Shown here piece after piece: positions 13,589-22,901 of a stretch of DNA of 60,395 bases. Position numbers and translations under genes: made by a program. Source of the stretch: Campylobacteraceae bacterium (GTDB lineage Bacteria; Campylobacterota; Campylobacteria; Campylobacterales; Sulfurovaceae); assembly GCA_027024155.1 (NCBI GenBank), contig JALVTE010000001.1, positions 1 through 60,395 on the forward strand, given 5' to 3'. Every line of letters starts with the position of its first letter. Within the stretch, counting starts at the first letter, position 1. The notes below the pieces were generated by a model, which saw nothing but the letters and a program-made list of their open reading frames with translations, did not search any database and had not been told where the DNA came from.

Positions 13589-14287
13589 CTACTCTCGTGT
13601 TAATATTTTATAGCCAACTTTTTTAGAGCTAGATATAATATCTCGTTGTAAATGCTTTCTTAATCTATAGATAAGTGCCCTTAAAGAGGCATCGGTTATA
13701 TTCATATTCTCAATTATAACCTCTTTGGTTAAAGTTCTTTGAGCATTATGACAAAGAATATCTAAAAATTCTGTCTCTTTTGGTGTTATTTTAATGGGTA
13801 TACCATCTTTAAAAAGCTGCTTATTTTTTAAATTAAAAACAAAGCCATATTTTAATTCAACTATATCTTTTGGTATGTTTTGCTCTTTTGGGTCTTTATA
13901 ATCTGGTTTTAGTAGAGCAAGTGTAGCTTTAATCTCTTTTGGACGATATGGCTTTAAAAGATAAGCTACAGCTTTTGCATCGGTTGCATACTCAACCATC
14001 TCTTCATCACTAAATGCAGTAAGAAAAATTATTTTAATCTTTTCATAAAGTGTATGTATTTTTAGAGCTAACTCTGCCCCACTTAATGAGCCTTTTATCA
14101 TTATATCCATAAAAATTATTTGAGGCTTTTGCTTTTTAATGCTTGTAAGTGTTTCATCTGCTGAAGCAGTAATGTCAATTACTTTAAAATCGCTATCTTC
14201 TTCTATAATACTTTTAAGATATGTTGCAGGAATTCGCTCATCTTCTACAATTAAAACATTTATAATATCCTTGGTAGTTTCTTGCAT
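13589..14287 (-). CDS. Response regulator with winged-helix output domain
   Basis: A 232-residue two-domain regulator. The receiver has the acidic pair E15-D16, phospho-acceptor D61 in IIFMDIMIKG, T90 and K112, so it should be phosphorylatable. The C-terminal part (about 140-230) ends in a short OmpR-like winged helix (ETEFLDILCHNAQRTLTKEV, then SLRALIYRLRKHL). The gene is 15 bases downstream of a histidine kinase, its probable partner, and 3 bases upstream of DUF2461. The pairing of a HisKA_2-type kinase with an OmpR-like regulator is common in this phylum. Confidence 0.85.
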   Translation of the reverse strand: MQETTKDIINVLIVEDERIPATYLKSIIEEDSDFKVIDITASADETLTSIKKQKPQIIFMDIMIKGSLSGAELALKIHTLYEKIKIIFLTAFSDEEMVEYATDAKAVAYLLKPYRPKEIKATLALLKPDYKDPKEQNIPKDIVELKYGFVFNLKNKQLFKDGIPIKITPKETEFLDILCHNAQRTLTKEVIIENMNITDASLRALIYRLRKHLQRDIISSSKKVGYKILTRE

Positions 14288-14302
14288 TATTTATCCTTTG
14301 CA

Positions 14303-15439
14303 TTATGCCTCTTCTAACTCTTTGAAATAAATATTGTAGCATAAACCACTATCAACTTTCAAATTCATTTCACCATTAAACTGCTCTACTGTTAATTTTA
14401 TTAAATTAAATCCAAAACCTTGTTGCAGTTTTTTTAAGTCTATCTTTTTACCATTATCACAATAGCTAAGTCTGTAACCTTCCTCTACTTTCTCAAATTT
14501 TAGAGTTATTTTTATTGCTTCATCTTCTGTTTTAACATACTTAATAGAGTTTGTAACCATTTCGTTGAGCATTATACCAAACTGAATCATACTATTCATA
14601 GTTAAGGAGATGGAATCTATTTTACAACTCGTTTTAACTTTCTCTTTTGAACTTTCGCAATGTATTATATTTATGATTAATTTATCAAGATACTTTTTAA
14701 TATTTAAGCTATCTTCACTATTATTTTTATATAGTACTTCGTGTAGTATAGCCATAGCCTCAATACGGCTTCTACTTCCTGCTAATGCCTCTTTTACAAT
14801 AGGGTTCTTACTACTTTGCTCTTGCAAGCCTAGAATCGATGCCATAAGGTTTAAATTATTTTTTACACGATGATGAATCTCTTTTAAAAGTAGTCTATTT
14901 TGTGCATTAGATTTTTCTAATCTATTAAGAGATTCTGTAACTCCTAAATGATATAAAAAACCATAAATTATAATAAAAGTATGTGCCATAAAATAAGCAA
15001 ACATATATTTAAAATTGTGTAAAAATAGATGGTTAGGATAATGGAAATAAAAGTAAACAAGAAGAGAAACAAGTAGCAAATAGTAGAGTATTAAATTGAT
15101 TATAATTCTCTTTAAAGGCATAGAAACAAATGCGATAATTGGAATTAAAAGAGCAAAAATTAAATCAAAATCTACTCTGTTTATATATAAAAAGATAAGT
15201 TCGGAAAAAGTAGAAAGCCAAAAAAGTATTATTGCACTTTTTTCTATATTTTTTAAGTTAAAGCTATATTTATAAATTATAAAAGTAGATATTGTATAAA
15301 ATAAATCTATATACACATCACTACTTTTTCTGAGTGCATCAACAAAAGTACCTACAGCACCAAGACATATTATAGAGATAAATGAACCATATATAAATAG
15401 CTCTTTATAGTGAAGTTTTCTCAATTTATTAATAAACAT
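14303..15439 (-). CDS. Membrane histidine kinase, HisKA_2 type
   Basis: A 378-residue sensor kinase. About 160 N-terminal residues form five or six hydrophobic helices without a large outer domain, suggesting that it senses within or near the membrane. The phospho-acceptor region LLLKEIHHRVKNNLNLMASI (His near 188) is of the HisKA_2 type, and the ATPase part has the N-box MLNEMVTNSIKYV and the G1-like DNGKKIDLKK and GFGFNLIKL. It is upstream of and co-directional with the response regulator gene. A perfect 52-base palindrome lies 50 bases upstream and could be involved in its control. Confidence 0.85.
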   Translation of the reverse strand: MFINKLRKLHYKELFIYGSFISIICLGAVGTFVDALRKSSDVYIDLFYTISTFIIYKYSFNLKNIEKSAIILFWLSTFSELIFLYINRVDFDLIFALLIPIIAFVSMPLKRIIINLILYYLLLVSLLVYFYFHYPNHLFLHNFKYMFAYFMAHTFIIIYGFLYHLGVTESLNRLEKSNAQNRLLLKEIHHRVKNNLNLMASILGLQEQSSKNPIVKEALAGSRSRIEAMAILHEVLYKNNSEDSLNIKKYLDKLIINIIHCESSKEKVKTSCKIDSISLTMNSMIQFGIMLNEMVTNSIKYVKTEDEAIKITLKFEKVEEGYRLSYCDNGKKIDLKKLQQGFGFNLIKLTVEQFNGEMNLKVDSGLCYNIYFKELEEA

Positions 15440-15489: not shown

Positions 15490-15541
15490 TAATAGTATCA
15501 TTTAATTGTGATAAATTTATCACAATTAAATGATACTATTA
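15490..15541. repeat. Perfect 52-bp palindrome
   Basis: Two 26-base arms with no loop meet between 15515 and 15516; the left arm begins TAATAGTATCATTTAATTG and the right arm is its exact reverse complement. It is preceded by a run of seven T. It lies upstream of the histidine kinase gene and of a divergent lipoprotein gene. Long perfect palindromes are usually unstable in cells with SbcCD, and sbcC and sbcD are present in this window. Confidence 0.9.
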
Positions 15542-16190: not shown

Positions 16191-17249
16191 TTATATTGTC
16201 CATCTATTCCATAAAAAGCCAACTACATACCACTTTCCATTAATTTTAGCCATTATAACATCTGCACCTCTCCAACTATATTCTGGGTATTTGCCTCTAC
16301 CTTTCCAGAAAAATTCATACCCTTTTAATATGTGGTTTTTTATCGGTTTAAAATATTTTAGTTTAGGAAGCTTTGTAACTCTACTGACTCTATTTACTGG
16401 CGATTTTAAATGTAGCATCTCTTTTAAACTCATTTTTATAGGGTCTCCTTTAGCATAATCAGAACCCCAGATAAACTCTTTGGAGCTGTTGTAAAATTTT
16501 GAAAACTGTTTTCGGTTAAAATAGATAATACCTTTATTTGGAAAATATATATTTCCAGTAATTCCAATGCCATATTTTGGATGTATAAAAGTTTTTATTT
16601 TAGATAAGTTTTGGCTCTCTAACGCTTTTAAAAACTCTCTTGCAGTAGATTTTGCAGATAAAAAACTAGAAGTATGCTTTGATAAATAATCATTTATTTT
16701 AAAGCTGAGTCGTCCGCAAGGGTAACCCTCTGTTGCATCTTCTGAATCATAATCAAACGAAATATCTATTTCTCCTATACCAGTTAATACACTTCTTGGA
16801 TAGGTTTTGCTTTTAATTGCAGTAACTTCTCCATTTTTCATTATTACATTGATAACTACACGACATTTTCCATTCTTACAGCCTATTGCATAATTACAAG
16901 AGTTCTTTTTACCGTTAATTGCGACATATCCTCTATTTGAAAACTTTAAATACCTAGCATTTACCCAGCCTGGCAATCTATCATTATATTCAAGATACTG
17001 ACCTATATTGCAATTTACTGCATGCACTTTACACCAGTTAGAGTGCCCCCTTTTAACGCACTCATCAACTCCTACATAAGCATTTGGCGGAAGTTCATTA
17101 ATTTTTCTTGAACGCCAATTTGCTTTTACTCTAACACTTAGCGTATCATTACTCGAAACACCGCTTACGTAGGCAAATAGGGCATTTGGATAATATTTTG
17201 CATTTAAAATAGCAATAAGCATAATAAAAATTAATAACTTTTTCATCAT
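16191..17249 (-). CDS. Exported SH3-domain-like protein, last gene of the VWA operon
   Basis: A 352-residue protein with an N-terminal signal peptide (about 1-17). The first third (about 25-110) reads like a bacterial SH3 domain (TLSVRVKANWRSRKINELPP, then NWCKVHAV and GWVNARYLKF) with several Cys that may form disulfides. The rest is unassigned; it ends with a WYVVGFLWN segment like the closing strand of NTF2-like or SH3 regions. It overlaps the upstream DUF4412-like gene by 4 bases (ATGA), so the two are translationally coupled. Confidence 0.65.
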   Translation of the reverse strand: MMKKLLIFIMLIAILNAKYYPNALFAYVSGVSSNDTLSVRVKANWRSRKINELPPNAYVGVDECVKRGHSNWCKVHAVNCNIGQYLEYNDRLPGWVNARYLKFSNRGYVAINGKKNSCNYAIGCKNGKCRVVINVIMKNGEVTAIKSKTYPRSVLTGIGEIDISFDYDSEDATEGYPCGRLSFKINDYLSKHTSSFLSAKSTAREFLKALESQNLSKIKTFIHPKYGIGITGNIYFPNKGIIYFNRKQFSKFYNSSKEFIWGSDYAKGDPIKMSLKEMLHLKSPVNRVSRVTKLPKLKYFKPIKNHILKGYEFFWKGRGKYPEYSWRGADVIMAKINGKWYVVGFLWNRWTI

Positions 17250-18466
17250 TTACCCATCATCTGTTTCATCATATTTTGCATCTTTTGCAAATCTTTTTGA
17301 CTTGGCATATTGGCACCGTTTTGGTGTTTGCCACTGCCAAACATTTTGCCTAAATCTTTTAAAGCATCTTGCGGATTTGCTTTAGTGTGTTTTACCAGTT
17401 TAAATTTAGAGAGATTCAAAAGAGTGTTTGCCTCTTTTTCTAAATCGTCTGTAACATTATCGGTTGCAGTAAGTTCTAGCATAGCGTTTGGCAATTTTAT
17501 ATCAAGTGTTTTAACCCCCGCCATATCTAAATGAGCCATCTGAAATCGGTGCCCCTGCAATTTACCGCGTTTTAAACCGGTAATGCTTAATCCCCGAACT
17601 TTGTAAGTTGCAATCAATCCTTGATTGTGTGGGTCGTTTACCGAAAGGCTTAAATGTATATATCCGTCTCCCTTTTTATAAAGGGCATTTTCGAGATGCA
17701 TACCCATCATATCTGCACAAGTAGCACTATCTACAAGCTTCCATCCATCAACACTAGGTTTAGTTATAGAAAGAAGCATTTTCGCCTTACCGTGTTTACC
17801 AATAATTGCACAAACAGGTGGTTTTTTAATATGAATTATAGGCTTTTTTATCTCTCCTATAGTTGCTATTTTAGCTGTTGTATTTGTAGTAAAAAGTATA
17901 TTGGGTAATTTTTTTGTATCAAAATTTGTAATTTTAAAGCCATCTCCTGCGACCATTACATAGCCATTTTTAACTTCATACATATTTTCAGTTCCGCTTT
18001 TTCCACTTGTCATTTTGCCTATAAATTTAGAAAATCCATCCAAAGCCTTTCTCAAATCTTTATTATCAGTTACAAAAACTTTATCAGTTACAATTTGCCC
18101 TCTCTCTTTAAATTTAATAGTCCACTCTCTAGCTTTAAATCCAGCAATATTTTTACTTGCCCCTTTACTTACAACTTCAATTTTGGGCTTTTTAAAACTA
18201 TCCTCCCCCGCACCCATTTGCGACATTTGCGAAAGCATAGCACTCATATCCATATAACGCTTTTTGCCATTAACATTAGTAACCGTATATAGTTTTCCTT
18301 CATTAAAAAGTTGCACTATCTTATGCCCATTTTCATTGCTCTCTAAAAGCATATGAGCATTATCTTTATAGTAAAACTTTTGTTCAACCCCATCCATTTT
18401 CATCGTTAAAGTGTAATCTGCTATAGCCAAAACGCTTAAAACAGACATCAGTAGTAATTTTTTCAT
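17246..18466 (-). CDS. Exported DUF4412-like protein of the VWA operon
   Basis: A 406-residue protein with a signal peptide (1-17). The N-terminal part (DYTLTMKMDGVEQKFYYKDN and YTVTNVNGKKRYMDMSAML) resembles DUF4412-type periplasmic proteins, which are related to outer-membrane lipoprotein carriers; the second half (about 200-370) is a separate beta-rich region. The C-terminus is a Met/Lys/Gln-rich helix (QKDLQKMQNMMKQMMGK), similar in style to the tail of the VWA protein two genes upstream (KKLKDMQKMLEMFGNKK). The shared tails hint that the products touch the same partner. The start overlaps the previous stop by one base. Confidence 0.65.
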   Translation of the reverse strand: MKKLLLMSVLSVLAIADYTLTMKMDGVEQKFYYKDNAHMLLESNENGHKIVQLFNEGKLYTVTNVNGKKRYMDMSAMLSQMSQMGAGEDSFKKPKIEVVSKGASKNIAGFKAREWTIKFKERGQIVTDKVFVTDNKDLRKALDGFSKFIGKMTSGKSGTENMYEVKNGYVMVAGDGFKITNFDTKKLPNILFTTNTTAKIATIGEIKKPIIHIKKPPVCAIIGKHGKAKMLLSITKPSVDGWKLVDSATCADMMGMHLENALYKKGDGYIHLSLSVNDPHNQGLIATYKVRGLSITGLKRGKLQGHRFQMAHLDMAGVKTLDIKLPNAMLELTATDNVTDDLEKEANTLLNLSKFKLVKHTKANPQDALKDLGKMFGSGKHQNGANMPSQKDLQKMQNMMKQMMGK

Positions 18467-18972
18467 TATTTCGCTCCTTGAACGCTATTTGCAACACGAA
18501 TCATCTCTTTCCACCAAACAAGTTTATAGTGTCCGCCATTATTAAAAACAAGCACCATAGATTTTGTTTTAGGAGCATCTAATATATAAATATTTTTTGC
18601 ACCATTTTTTAAATCTTTAGTAAATGGAGCTTTTGTATCATTATCTTTAAACGATTTTAAAAAGCCCTTTTTAACAGCCCCATAAAGTGGACTCTTGCTT
18701 AAGGGTTTAAAGCTATTGCTATGTTTTATAAGCGTATCCAAAGCATTAAGAGAGAAACCATTGTCATCAGACTCTAAAGGGTGTTTATATTTCATTCCCT
18801 CAACTATCCATTTATAGTTAAAATCTCCATTTAAGCCGTAAATATTCTTTTTAATAGCACTGTAATTTTTATTAACTGCTTTAGTTTTTATCTCTTTAAG
18901 CAAGCCGTTAATTGTACTATCGTTACCAAATATTAAAGCTGTTAAAATCAAACTAAATATTATCTTTTTCAT
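18466..18972 (-). CDS. Small exported protein of the VWA operon
   Basis: A 168-residue protein with a signal peptide (about 1-17). The mature part is basic and helix-rich and ends KSMVLVFNNGGHYKLVWWKE, which looks like the closing strands of a small alpha-beta domain, perhaps NTF2-like. No family was recognised. It lies between the VWA gene (9-base gap) and the DUF4412-like gene (one-base overlap), so it is an integral part of the operon. Confidence 0.6.
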   Translation of the reverse strand: MKKIIFSLILTALIFGNDSTINGLLKEIKTKAVNKNYSAIKKNIYGLNGDFNYKWIVEGMKYKHPLESDDNGFSLNALDTLIKHSNSFKPLSKSPLYGAVKKGFLKSFKDNDTKAPFTKDLKNGAKNIYILDAPKTKSMVLVFNNGGHYKLVWWKEMIRVANSVQGAK

Positions 18973-18981
18973 TCTGCATCC

Positions 18982-20937
18982 TTATTTTTTATTTCCAAAC
19001 ATTTCAAGCATCTTTTGCATATCTTTAAGCTTCTTAATCTGCTTGTCACTTAAACCCTCTATGTTTATAATCTTATCTCCGATTTTAATTGTTTGTGGAT
19101 TATTTTTATTTGCCTCTTTACTATTTTGACTCTCCTCTTTAGCAACAGTTTTAGTTTCTACTTTTGAATTACTACTTGCATCATCTTTTATAAGTAGTTT
19201 GTGTCTATCGTCGTCACTTAAAGGGCGAATATAGCTTCCTCTCCAACTGCTATTAAGAGTTTTGTTACAGTAAGACCATTTGCCTTTAAAACTACACATT
19301 TTATCATCAAATTTCCATATGACTTTTCCCCAATAGTAGCGTCCATTTTTAGCAGTAGAGCATTTTTCATTTGAATTATCTTCTATCCAATATCCTTCGA
19401 AACGCTTAGGATAAGTCATCTCTCCTATTAATTCACCGTTATCGGTATTGTAGTAACCGTGAACTCTCTTGCCATTAAGAGCAATAGTTGCTCTGCCTTC
19501 ATTGGTTTTCCAAACCCCCTCAATACCATTTAGTGTATCATCTCCTCCAAAATCAACTGTGGCACTGTTTTGCCCTTTTCCTATATCTATTTTGGTCTTA
19601 ATTTTTTTATCTGGGAAACTTGATTCTATTGTATATTTACCTTTTAAGGCTATAAACTCGATTCCTTTATAGGCAGGAGAGTCTTTTTCGTAAACTGTTT
19701 CTCCATTAGATGAAATTACTTCAAAATGTATCTTTGCACAAGGAGTAATACCCTTTACATTTACATGAAATGGTGCAAACACAACATCAATATGAGCAGT
19801 CTCTCCAGCTTTAACCTCAAAAGGAATATCTTTTTTATCAAACTCATTATAAGAGCAGTTAGCCGTATATTTTCCAACAGGAAGCTTCAGAGTGTTACTT
19901 TGAGGATTTTTTCTTCTTGAACTTAAATGCCAACTGTCACTCTTATCTTCATTATAAAGTCTGCAATTTGAATAAACTAGTTTTCCGCCTTCAGTTTCTC
20001 TTGCTGTTACATAAACTTTTCCGGTTTGCCCAAACACAACATCAAAATGAGCAGTCTCTCCGGCTTTAACCTCAAAAGGAATATCTTTTTTATCAAACTC
20101 ATTATAAGAGCAGTTAGCCGTATATTTTCCGATAGGAAGCTTCAGAGTATTGCTTTGAGGATTTTTTCTTCTTGAACTTAAATGCCAACTGTCACTCTTA
20201 TCTTCATTATAAAGTCTGCAATTTGAATAAACTAGCTTTCCGCCTTCTGTTTCTCTTGCGGTTATATAAACTTTGCCATCTTTACTCACAACTACTGGTT
20301 TTTTAGGCTTTTCTACCTTTTTTACAACTTTTTTAATAGCCCTATTTAATGCATTCGCATTTTTTGCACTAAAATACTCTCCGCCTGTGGCATTTGCAAT
20401 GCATTGTAGCTGTTTATCGGTAGCTTTATCAACATTAAAACCAATTACATGAGCTACAAAATCGATTCCCTCTCTCTTAAGCTCTTTTGCTGTGCCACAC
20501 GGGTCTGGGTCGCAAGTCTCTTTGCCGTCGCTTATTAAAATCACAGTCGCTTTATCTTCTGTATATTTTAACTCATTGGCTGCTTTTTTAATAGAGCGAC
20601 TAATTGGTGTTTTACCCTTTGGTGAAATTGCCATAACACTTTTAATAATTCGTGCTTTATCAACCGCTCCAACAGGCACAACACTTTGAATATCGTTGCA
20701 ATCACCTTTGCGTCGATGTCCATAAACTGTTAAACCTAGCTGAACATCAGGGTTCCAATTCTTAACCACCTTTTTTAATGCATCTTTAGCAATTTTAATT
20801 TTGGCTATACCATTAATTTGCCCCCACATACTGCCACTTGCATCAAAAATAATAATAGCACGAGGATTATCTTTTGCCATAATATTGCTAAATAGTGTCG
20901 ATGCCACTATTATAAAACTAAGTAGTAACCTTTTCAT
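18982..20937 (-). CDS. Exported von Willebrand factor A protein with duplicated 85-residue repeat
   Basis: A 651-residue periplasmic or surface protein: signal peptide (1-21), VWA domain (about 25-205) with an intact metal-ion-dependent adhesion site (DASGS at 32-36, Thr in GKTPISRS and Asp in ISDGKETCDPD), two tandem copies of an 85-residue beta domain (about 220-390), another beta domain, and a C-terminal domain with GVWKTNEGRATIAL and WIEDNSNEKCS. The tail is a charged helix. The two repeats differ at only a few residues, evidence of recent duplication. First gene of a four-gene operon whose other products are all exported. VWA proteins often scaffold surface complexes; the function here is unknown. 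Confidence 0.8.
   Translation of the reverse strand: MKRLLLSFIIVASTLFSNIMAKDNPRAIIIFDASGSMWGQINGIAKIKIAKDALKKVVKNWNPDVQLGLTVYGHRRKGDCNDIQSVVPVGAVDKARIIKSVMAISPKGKTPISRSIKKAANELKYTEDKATVILISDGKETCDPDPCGTAKELKREGIDFVAHVIGFNVDKATDKQLQCIANATGGEYFSAKNANALNRAIKKVVKKVEKPKKPVVVSKDGKVYITARETEGGKLVYSNCRLYNEDKSDSWHLSSRRKNPQSNTLKLPIGKYTANCSYNEFDKKDIPFEVKAGETAHFDVVFGQTGKVYVTARETEGGKLVYSNCRLYNEDKSDSWHLSSRRKNPQSNTLKLPVGKYTANCSYNEFDKKDIPFEVKAGETAHIDVVFAPFHVNVKGITPCAKIHFEVISSNGETVYEKDSPAYKGIEFIALKGKYTIESSFPDKKIKTKIDIGKGQNSATVDFGGDDTLNGIEGVWKTNEGRATIALNGKRVHGYYNTDNGELIGEMTYPKRFEGYWIEDNSNEKCSTAKNGRYYWGKVIWKFDDKMCSFKGKWSYCNKTLNSSWRGSYIRPLSDDDRHKLLIKDDASSNSKVETKTVAKEESQNSKEANKNNPQTIKIGDKIINIEGLSDKQIKKLKDMQKMLEMFGNKK
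19781..20276 (-). repeat. Recent in-gene tandem duplication, 255-base unit
   Basis: Two near-identical copies, 19781-20035 and 20036 to about 20276, encode the two 85-residue repeats of the VWA protein. Only about a dozen bases differ across the unit, including at third codon positions, so the duplication or a later conversion is recent. Confidence 0.9.
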
Positions 20938-21038
20938 ACTCTCTCCTTCTTTTGTATGGTAATAAGTACATTATATCAATCGACTGTGACAAATATTGGA
21001 TAAATGAACTTTTTATATAGTTTTAGATAGAATTTTTT

Positions 21039-22901
21039 ATGAAACATTTTTATATCAAATTTTTTTATACAGTTTTTATCATAGTTTTTAGCTCTCTATC
21101 TGCACAAGATATAGATGTTTCTAAAAAACAAGAAGCCTATATTTTAAAAGATAGTTATATATATTTTGATACTAAAGATTTAAATTTAACTCAAATAATT
21201 ACACAAAATCTCTTTAAACCATATCAAAAAGAGTATATAAATATTGCAATGAAAAATGTTGATATATGGATTCGTTTTAAACTTGTTAATAGAACGAATT
21301 ATAAAGTAAAAAAAATGCTTATCTTAACCTCTCCACTTTTAGAGAATATTGCACTTTTTAGGCAGAGTAATTTAAATACAGTACTCTATAAAGGTGTTAA
21401 TCATATTCAAAAAGAGCATCATACGCTAGTGCCTTTTTATAATATAATACTTCCTCCACATAGTTCTGAGATATATTATCTTAAAGTAAATTCAATATGG
21501 ACACCAATAGATTTTAGATTAAAATTAGATAATCATCAGCATTTTAAACATAACGATAGAGTGCAACAATTTGTAGATATTTTACTAATTGGATTTGTCT
21601 TAGCTCTGATGCTCTATAGCTTTTTACTATATTTTTATATAAAAGATAAGAGTTATCTCTTTTATAGCTTGTACCTTATTGCATTAATTTATCAGCAATC
21701 TACATATTTAGGATTAACTCAAATATATTTTCCAAAAGAATTTATAGACTTTGATATGCGTATACCAGTACTTAAAGTTAATCTTTTAGTTATAACTGCA
21801 GCACTTTTTGCTATGAATTTTTTAAAAACTAAATCTTTAAGAGTAATAGATAAAATATATAAACTTTTTATTATTGTATCTATTGTAGAGATATTATTTT
21901 TAAGTAATTCTTACTTTTATAATTTATATATAGTTATATTTACTGGTTTCTTATTTATACTTTTTAACCTCAGCGCAGGCATTATATCTTATAAAAAAGG
22001 TAATAAACAAGCTAGACTATTTATTGTGGGTTTTAGTATAGTCTTTTTGTCATACTTTCTAATTATTCTTGATGCTATAGGTTTTACATCTATTATTCAA
22101 AAGTATCAAAATATACTTATGTATGGTACAGCATTCGAAGCTCTTATACTCTCTCTTGCTTTTGCAGATAGGTATTTAATTTTACAAAAAGAGAAAAATG
22201 ATGCAGATAAGCTTATTTTAGAAGAGTCTAAACATAGGACAGAAATAATTAAAAGAGAAGTAATAAAAAAGACTCAAGAGCTTAATAGTGCTTTAGAGGC
22301 TAAAGAGTTACTTTTAAAAGAGCTTACTCACCGTGTAAAAAATAATTTACAAATTATACTATCTATAATCCGCTTGCAACAAGATGATATTGCAGATGAG
22401 ACTATCAATAAAAAATTTATAGATTTAGAAAATAGAATAAATGCAATATCAAAAACCTATAGTATGCTTATTATAAAAGATAATATCGAAGAGATTGATA
22501 TGCGAGGATATATAGAATCTTTAGTTTTAGATATTAAAGATACAATGCAAAAAGAGAACCAAACAATTAAAATAGAGACAGATATTAATGCAAAAATACC
22601 ACTTAGAGAGTCTGTTTATATTGGTCTTATTGTTAATGAACTTGTAACAAATGCTTATAAATATGCTTTTGATAGTGATGGTATTATCTCTATATCTCTT
22701 AAACAAAATGGAAATAGTTATATATTAAAAATTGAAGATAATGGCAAGGGCTATAACAGTGATGGTACTCAAGATTCATTAGGGCTAAAGCTAATAGATA
22801 CACTTGTTTTATATCAGTTAAACGGTACTATAGAAAAAGATACAAAAAATCATACACGATATATCATTAGCTTTAGGGTACCTTCAATATATAAAAGGTA
22901 G
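21039..22901 (+). CDS. 7TMR-DISM histidine kinase, HisKA_2 type
   Basis: A 620-residue sensor kinase: signal peptide (about 1-22), a periplasmic 7TMR-DISMED2 jelly-roll sensor (about 30-165, with VDIWIRFKLVNRTNYKV), seven membrane helices (about 180-385), a short coiled coil, a HisKA_2 region LLLKELTHRVKNNLQIILSI (His near 431) and a HATPase domain with NELVTNAYKYAF and EDNGKGYNSDG. No response regulator is adjacent, so it is an orphan. The DISM module usually senses carbohydrates or redox signals. There is no clear ribosome site; a TAGAAT box ends just before the ATG. Confidence 0.85.
   Translation: MKHFYIKFFYTVFIIVFSSLSAQDIDVSKKQEAYILKDSYIYFDTKDLNLTQIITQNLFKPYQKEYINIAMKNVDIWIRFKLVNRTNYKVKKMLILTSPLLENIALFRQSNLNTVLYKGVNHIQKEHHTLVPFYNIILPPHSSEIYYLKVNSIWTPIDFRLKLDNHQHFKHNDRVQQFVDILLIGFVLALMLYSFLLYFYIKDKSYLFYSLYLIALIYQQSTYLGLTQIYFPKEFIDFDMRIPVLKVNLLVITAALFAMNFLKTKSLRVIDKIYKLFIIVSIVEILFLSNSYFYNLYIVIFTGFLFILFNLSAGIISYKKGNKQARLFIVGFSIVFLSYFLIILDAIGFTSIIQKYQNILMYGTAFEALILSLAFADRYLILQKEKNDADKLILEESKHRTEIIKREVIKKTQELNSALEAKELLLKELTHRVKNNLQIILSIIRLQQDDIADETINKKFIDLENRINAISKTYSMLIIKDNIEEIDMRGYIESLVLDIKDTMQKENQTIKIETDINAKIPLRESVYIGLIVNELVTNAYKYAFDSDGIISISLKQNGNSYILKIEDNGKGYNSDGTQDSLGLKLIDTLVLYQLNGTIEKDTKNHTRYIISFRVPSIYKR

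Follow-up and report, generated by a model that had tools for sequence, protein, structure and literature searches.

Four closely packed genes for exported proteins lie on the minus strand of the window, the 60,395-nucleotide stretch analysed here, which belongs to a contig of a Campylobacterota MAG from the Sulfurovaceae, a family of sulphur-oxidising vent bacteria, and raise the question of whether they make up a functional system and, if so, of what kind. The initial annotation read them as an operon led by a VWA protein and as a candidate undescribed system, perhaps a periplasmic or surface assembly.

Operon layout and predicted products

The genes were found where first annotated, all on the minus strand, in the order VWA protein (651 aa; 18982..20937), small protein (168 aa, without family; 18466..18972), a 406-aa protein originally called DUF4412-like and here termed D44 (17246..18466), and SH3 protein (352 aa; 16191..17249). 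The VWA and small genes are separated by 9 bases, and the small/D44 and D44/SH3 junctions overlap by 1 and 4 bases, as had been reported; such junctions are the usual sign of one transcript, and the four genes are therefore predicted to be co-transcribed. At its start, each of the four proteins has a charged n-region together with a hydrophobic segment, for which the best 10-residue Kyte-Doolittle mean is 2.8-3.6, and by inspection and hydropathy all four appear to carry the Sec-type signal peptides initially assigned to them, with no lipobox at any of the four N-termini inspected. A scan for consensus promoters and terminators around the operon gave counts similar to those in shuffled sequence and is uninformative alone. 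Literature searches agree with the earlier view that no named system has this make-up, and those directed at Sulfurovum VWA proteins or DUF4412 returned nothing relevant. A defence or phage origin was discarded, as PADLOC anti-phage models gave no operon match at E<=0.01 and there was no credible PHROG match.

The VWA domain (residues ~28-205; 20323-20856, minus strand) matches Pfam VWA_2 above the cut-off (E 8e-8). Its metal site had been described as intact, and the MIDAS residues D32/S34/S36, T110 and D137 are indeed invariant or nearly so across 14 aligned proteins, as are C80, C142, C147 and C179. The domain is followed by the two beta repeats that had also been described, each of ~85 aa (residues 222-306 and 307-390/391; 19765..20274, minus strand) and identical to one another at ~92-92.5% in DNA and 92% in protein, with copy number ranging from 1 to 8 in relatives. 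Further along are a C-terminal beta domain (WKTNEG...CSFKGKWSYC; residues ~472-570; 19228..19524, minus strand), found among close relatives only in the window, genome G021 and a fragment in G158, and a conserved C-terminal tail forming an amphipathic helix (residues 615-651; 18985..19095, minus strand). No PDB relative was detected by sequence at E<=0.01. Elsewhere, VWA domains of this family are common, for example at ~45% identity in Roseobacter plasmid proteins, and the "DASGSMWG"-type VWA proteins of Roseobacter and Actinobacteria resemble the protein here in this domain, at the same level of identity. They differ in that the repeat region, tail and LolA-fold partner (see below) were found, among 399 order-level genomes, only in Sulfurovaceae; full-length relatives in this set were likewise confined to the family, and matches outside it covered only the VWA or the C-terminal domain.

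The small protein, for which, as for D44, neither Pfam nor NCBIfam offers a fitting family, was found in the window, G021 and G111, always directly before D44. A resemblance to the C-terminal half of the SH3 protein was considered and rejected, there being no homology outside the signal peptide. The initial label "SH3-like" is weakly supported by an SH3_3 match (E 3e-5) that scores 24.5 bits against a Pfam cut-off of 27; the aligned region is conserved among relatives, and the protein also has a conserved Cys and a C-terminal WYVVG..RWTI domain. It recurs in about ten loci and is often found apart from VWA. In the model proposed below, the SH3 and small genes fit as accessories only.

The VWA protein and its partners of predicted LolA/RseB type

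The DUF4412 identity of D44 did not survive closer inspection, as neither D44 nor any of 18 relatives matches this family (PF14371; no Pfam match for D44 at E<=1), and the predicted fold is instead RseB/LolA-like. A model of moderate confidence built from 19 sequences (pLDDT 74, pTM 0.47) has a predicted N-domain resembling LolA/LprG (residues 14-203) and a predicted C-domain resembling Mog1/DcrB proteins (residues 227-357), with a helical tail at residues 390-403. RseB/MucB was the sole family retrieved with this model by Foldseek at E<=1e-3 (best 4e-8, probability 1.00), and VIA-align gave Z 8.4 over residues 14-357, with an rmsd of 17 across both domains because both match but differ in arrangement. 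The exported family c4, which occupies the same position beside VWA in other genomes, was modelled from 25 sequences (pLDDT 83), and its beta domain aligns with LolA over 150 residues (Z 12.3, rmsd 3.5), suggesting a LolA half-barrel fold; two of its 25 members match DUF4412 (PF14371), the best at E 0.015. The models thus place D44 and c4 in one predicted fold class, the LolA/RseB type. A profile comparison of D44 with c4 gave no match, and a sequence search for PDB relatives of D44 and c4 nothing credible.

Among 175 family genomes searched, VWA matches were present in 38, SH3 in 32, D44 in 19 and the small protein in 3. The order VWA-small-D44-SH3 of the window corresponds elsewhere to longer arrays that include further exported families without a Pfam name, labelled here c2, c4, c5, c11, c23 and c39: VWA-small-D44-c11-SH3-c2-c4 in G021, VWA-D44-c11-c2-c2-c5-c23-SH3 in G158 (VWA split over two contigs), VWA-D44-c23-SH3-c5 in G162, VWA-D44-c11-c2-...-SH3 in G123 (VWA broken by an assembly gap), and a 2057-aa VWA protein-small-D44-c11-c2-SH3 in G111. 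With c4 in place of D44, the order is VWA-c11-c4-c2-c2-c23-c39-SH3 in G065, VWA-c4-c2-c2-Sel1-SH3 in G085, and VWA-c4 in many further genomes. Separation of the genes in relatives had been named as an outcome that would speak against a system; the small and SH3 genes do come and go, while VWA and its partner stay together. Of the proposed four-gene system, linkage, export and the lack of a named counterpart are retained, and the conserved unit is narrowed to VWA and a partner of predicted LolA/RseB fold, accompanied by accessory genes that vary.

The two partner classes exchange places. In the VWA-domain tree, the D44 label needs four changes by parsimony, at least two of which are forced by well-supported branches, and the VWA domain of G018 is 92% identical to that of the window, yet c4 there replaces the small gene and D44. 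That two proteins of one predicted fold trade places beside VWA is good evidence, as far as the models hold, that VWA depends on a partner with a LolA fold. Beside both partner classes, the VWA tail (IKIGDKIINIEGLSDKQIKKLKDMQKMLEMFG) can be recognised. All 22 loci with a tailed VWA of complete C-terminus have c4 or D44 downstream, adjoining or one gene away, against 0 of 10 complete tail-less VWA genes (the PPC type set apart), a co-occurrence for which Fisher's test gives ~1.5e-8 if loci are independent, which they are not; it may reflect one inherited event. We infer that the VWA tail contacts the partner's cavity. The D44 helical tail is found in six operon copies and absent from remote D44 paralogs, including one elsewhere in the genome of the window. 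The VWA and D44 tails had been thought to share a similar Lys/Met-rich helix, a likeness that reaches P 0.14 against shuffles over 60 aa and P 0.02 for the helix alone; direct homology was rejected, being not significant over the whole tail, and what remains is that both tails are conserved, each in paired forms only.

Several related loci were noted in passing. A remote D44 paralog without the helical tail (L039:7607-8683; G000:C80:62621-63592) lies beside a peroxiredoxin-like gene, in a place conserved in the genus. Exported proteins of 1480 to >2000 aa with VWA-like stretches stand in the place of the standard VWA at the array end in L090 (3665-9838), L094 and L095. PPC-repeat-like VWA proteins of 1660-1772 aa occur in L085, L087, L097, L098 and L137, paired with a 900-1200 aa partner, c33; caspase-like and metallo-beta-lactamase-like genes lie near that of L087, and that of L137, cut by the contig end, adjoins a kinase of the family described next and carries the operator.

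The divergent sensor kinase and a predicted operator

Divergent from the operon is HK7, a 620-aa sensor histidine kinase of the 7TMR-DISM/HisKA_2 type (21039..22901, plus strand) with 7TMR-DISMED2, 7TMR-DISM_7TM and HisKA_2 domains. Downstream of close homologs in the family there is usually a gene for an OmpR-type regulator (Response_reg plus Trans_reg_C), and in ~15 of 34 homologs VWA, c4 or c5 lies no more than about three genes away on the divergent side: VWA in the window, G018 and G081; c4 in G073, G123, G084, G115, G111, G052, G114 and G125, and in G120 after one exported gene; and c5 in G065, G066 and G080. As a rough estimate, fewer than one such linkage would be expected by chance (~2000 genes per genome, at most about ten family members). 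In G123, HK7 beside VWA is in pieces, and an intact copy adjoins c4 at a distance of ~45 kb.

In G018 (L159) the order is SbcD-SbcC-regulator-kinase facing VWA, the kinase being interrupted by a contig break. The stops of HK7 (22901) and SbcC (22923) in the window are 22 bases apart, which, given the regulator at this place in G018, indicates that the regulator gene was lost and the kinase is an orphan. The best match to the G018 regulator in the whole genome of the window, the 34% identical protein at 13589-14287, lies next to another HisKA_2 kinase and was rejected as the lost cognate, being only 33-34% identical to the HK7-linked regulators and not an ortholog. It belongs to a second two-component system past the 3' end of the operon (13589-15439), comprising this Response_reg plus Trans_reg_C protein and a HisKA_2 kinase (14303-15439); G018 keeps an ortholog of the regulator (66%) without that kinase. 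Between this divergent HisKA_2 kinase and the gene for a 138-aa lipoprotein is a perfect 24-bp palindrome (AATTGTGATAAATTTATCACAATT; 15504-15527), which looks like the site of a dimeric regulator.

A predicted response-regulator operator with a -10 box (ATTTATCCAATATTTGTCACAGTCGATTGATATAAT; 20970..21005, minus strand) lies 32 bp before the VWA start. The 36-bp operator shared among the intergenic regions comprises two 11-bp TTTTGnCACAT repeats, 8-9 bases and a TATAAT pointing toward the exported operon, and the spacing from repeats to TATAAT is constant in ten loci. This layout is typical of OmpR-family activators, whose sites commonly show an 11-bp period. A weight matrix built from the ten loci was tested on 1.2 Mb of retrieved sequence and, at a score >=18, returned 30 held-out sites (40 in all) versus 0 in shuffles (maximum 17). 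Many matrix sites stand 20-45 bp before VWA, c4, c5 or the big VWA genes in genomes with the kinase elsewhere. Searched as a pattern with <=3 mismatches, the operator occurs 121 times in 175 genomes, compared with 9 for a reversed control; 62 of these sites are in the 34 genomes with a close HK7 and the other 59 in genomes without, suggesting that another regulator may read the operator. The window operator is the only site in its own genome at <=3 mismatches, and its first repeat is degenerate, as would be expected once the regulator was lost. Further targets include LemA-DUF2207 (six genomes), AIM24-TMEM43, MoxR-DUF58, Sel1, barrel proteins and 5'-nucleotidase, and together the operator targets form a predicted envelope regulon.

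Proposed mechanism and competing explanations

The explanation we favour, and to which we give about an even chance, is a regulated Sulfurovaceae envelope module in which VWA and a LolA/RseB-fold partner are switched by the kinase and the tail engages a partner for lipid or another hydrophobic ligand. It draws on sequence for pair conservation, partner swap, tail co-occurrence, kinase linkage and operator spacing, and on prediction for the folds; the phospho-relay to the VWA operator, the contact between tail and partner, the ligand and the location are its inferred parts. The 7TMR-DISM kinase would detect an envelope or external signal and phosphorylate the OmpR-type regulator, which would bind the two 11-bp repeats in place of a -35 box and activate the VWA operon along with further envelope genes. 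The helical tail of VWA would engage the LolA/RseB-like partner in the periplasm, the partner itself binding lipid, lipoprotein or other hydrophobic material, and the pair would either serve as chaperone for the repeat protein on its way to the surface or report and repair envelope damage. In the window, with the regulator gene lost and the operator partly decayed, control may now be weaker or lie with a different regulator. A more specific form, in which the tail docks in a LolA/RseB-type cavity, a lipid-binding partner controls VWA display or activity, and the whole answers to a 7TMR-DISM kinase that has an operator and an envelope regulon of its own, is possible but doubtful.

Adhesion and the sensing of cell-wall state had both been suggested at the outset. 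The latter receives indirect support from the adjoining sensor kinase and the envelope character of the operator's other targets, and a role of the VWA operon in adhesion is possible given the variable repeat number. Taken further, VWA could be a surface or pilus-tip-like adhesin, served by the LolA-fold partner as a periplasmic chaperone or carrier of its own and anchored to peptidoglycan by SH3; homogenised repeats in 1-8 copies, as in many adhesins, an intact MIDAS and a conserved exported SH3 protein are in keeping with this, but the operon has no outer-membrane secretion pore, pilin or lipobox and VWA domains of its type are widespread and uncharacterised, and we consider it rather unlikely. 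D44 or c4 might instead be a ligand-sensing accessory of HK7, as RseB is for RseA, with VWA sensing cell wall or matrix in the same pathway. The modelled fold of D44 is compatible with this, as is the position of c4 alone divergent to HK7 in eight genomes (those listed above from G073 to G125), yet c4 occurs in 107 of 175 family genomes, most of them without a close HK7, and we know of no kinase that uses RseB as an accessory, so that such feedback seems unlikely. Gene content that varies greatly between genomes, a small gene in only three of them and SH3 genes without VWA would also suit a loose array of exported proteins, each acting alone at a permissive locus controlled by a two-component system; the constancy of VWA with its LolA-fold partner, through swapping and tail co-occurrence, makes the absence of any functional unit very unlikely.

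The components of the favoured envelope module are of known kinds, namely a two-component envelope regulon and LolA/RseB-fold proteins; a literature search that excluded most subscription journals found no description of their combination, VWA and such a partner with a kinase-linked operator. In the sigma-E/AlgU envelope stress response, RseB/MucB acts as the periplasmic sensor. Like D44 as modelled, it is an exported two-domain protein, with a LolA-like large and a smaller beta domain, tied to a signalling gene. D44 differs in its ~10% identity, its modelled domain arrangement, its extra helical tail and its neighbours, which are a histidine kinase and VWA instead of RseA/MucA or a sigma factor (no anti-sigma or ECF sigma factor gene was found in the operon neighbourhood). 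By analogy with MucB, which senses lipids through a hydrophobic cavity (PMC7400510), a lipid-linked role may be favoured. The LolA carrier, including H. pylori LolA (9gtx), shares its fold with the c4 model, but c4 ends in a helical bundle containing Cys, shares an operon with VWA, is often present in several copies per genome, and is not the housekeeping lolA. The operator resembles the cre/blr-tag of E. coli and Aeromonas CreBC/BlrAB (TTCACnnnnnnTTCAC; PMC3660660) in tandem CAC-containing half-sites, cell-envelope-related promoters and an 11-bp period, which alone is no proof of kinship; it differs in its flanks and in a repeated TTTTGnCACAT core at -35, and the kinase here is of the 7TMR-DISM/HisKA_2 type, with no creD or beta-lactamase target seen among the operator sites.

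Few envelope stress or surface-attachment regulons have been described in vent Campylobacterota, and the kinase, regulator, operator, target list and VWA/LolA-fold pair make a testable pathway out of what were a group of "hypothetical proteins". If the proposed module is real, LolA/RseB-type cavities would be used with a protein client beyond lipoprotein sorting and sigma-E control. The LemA-DUF2207 operon, with the operator ~30 bp upstream in L162, L163, L164, L172, L177 and L178, offers a possible entry to LemA function.
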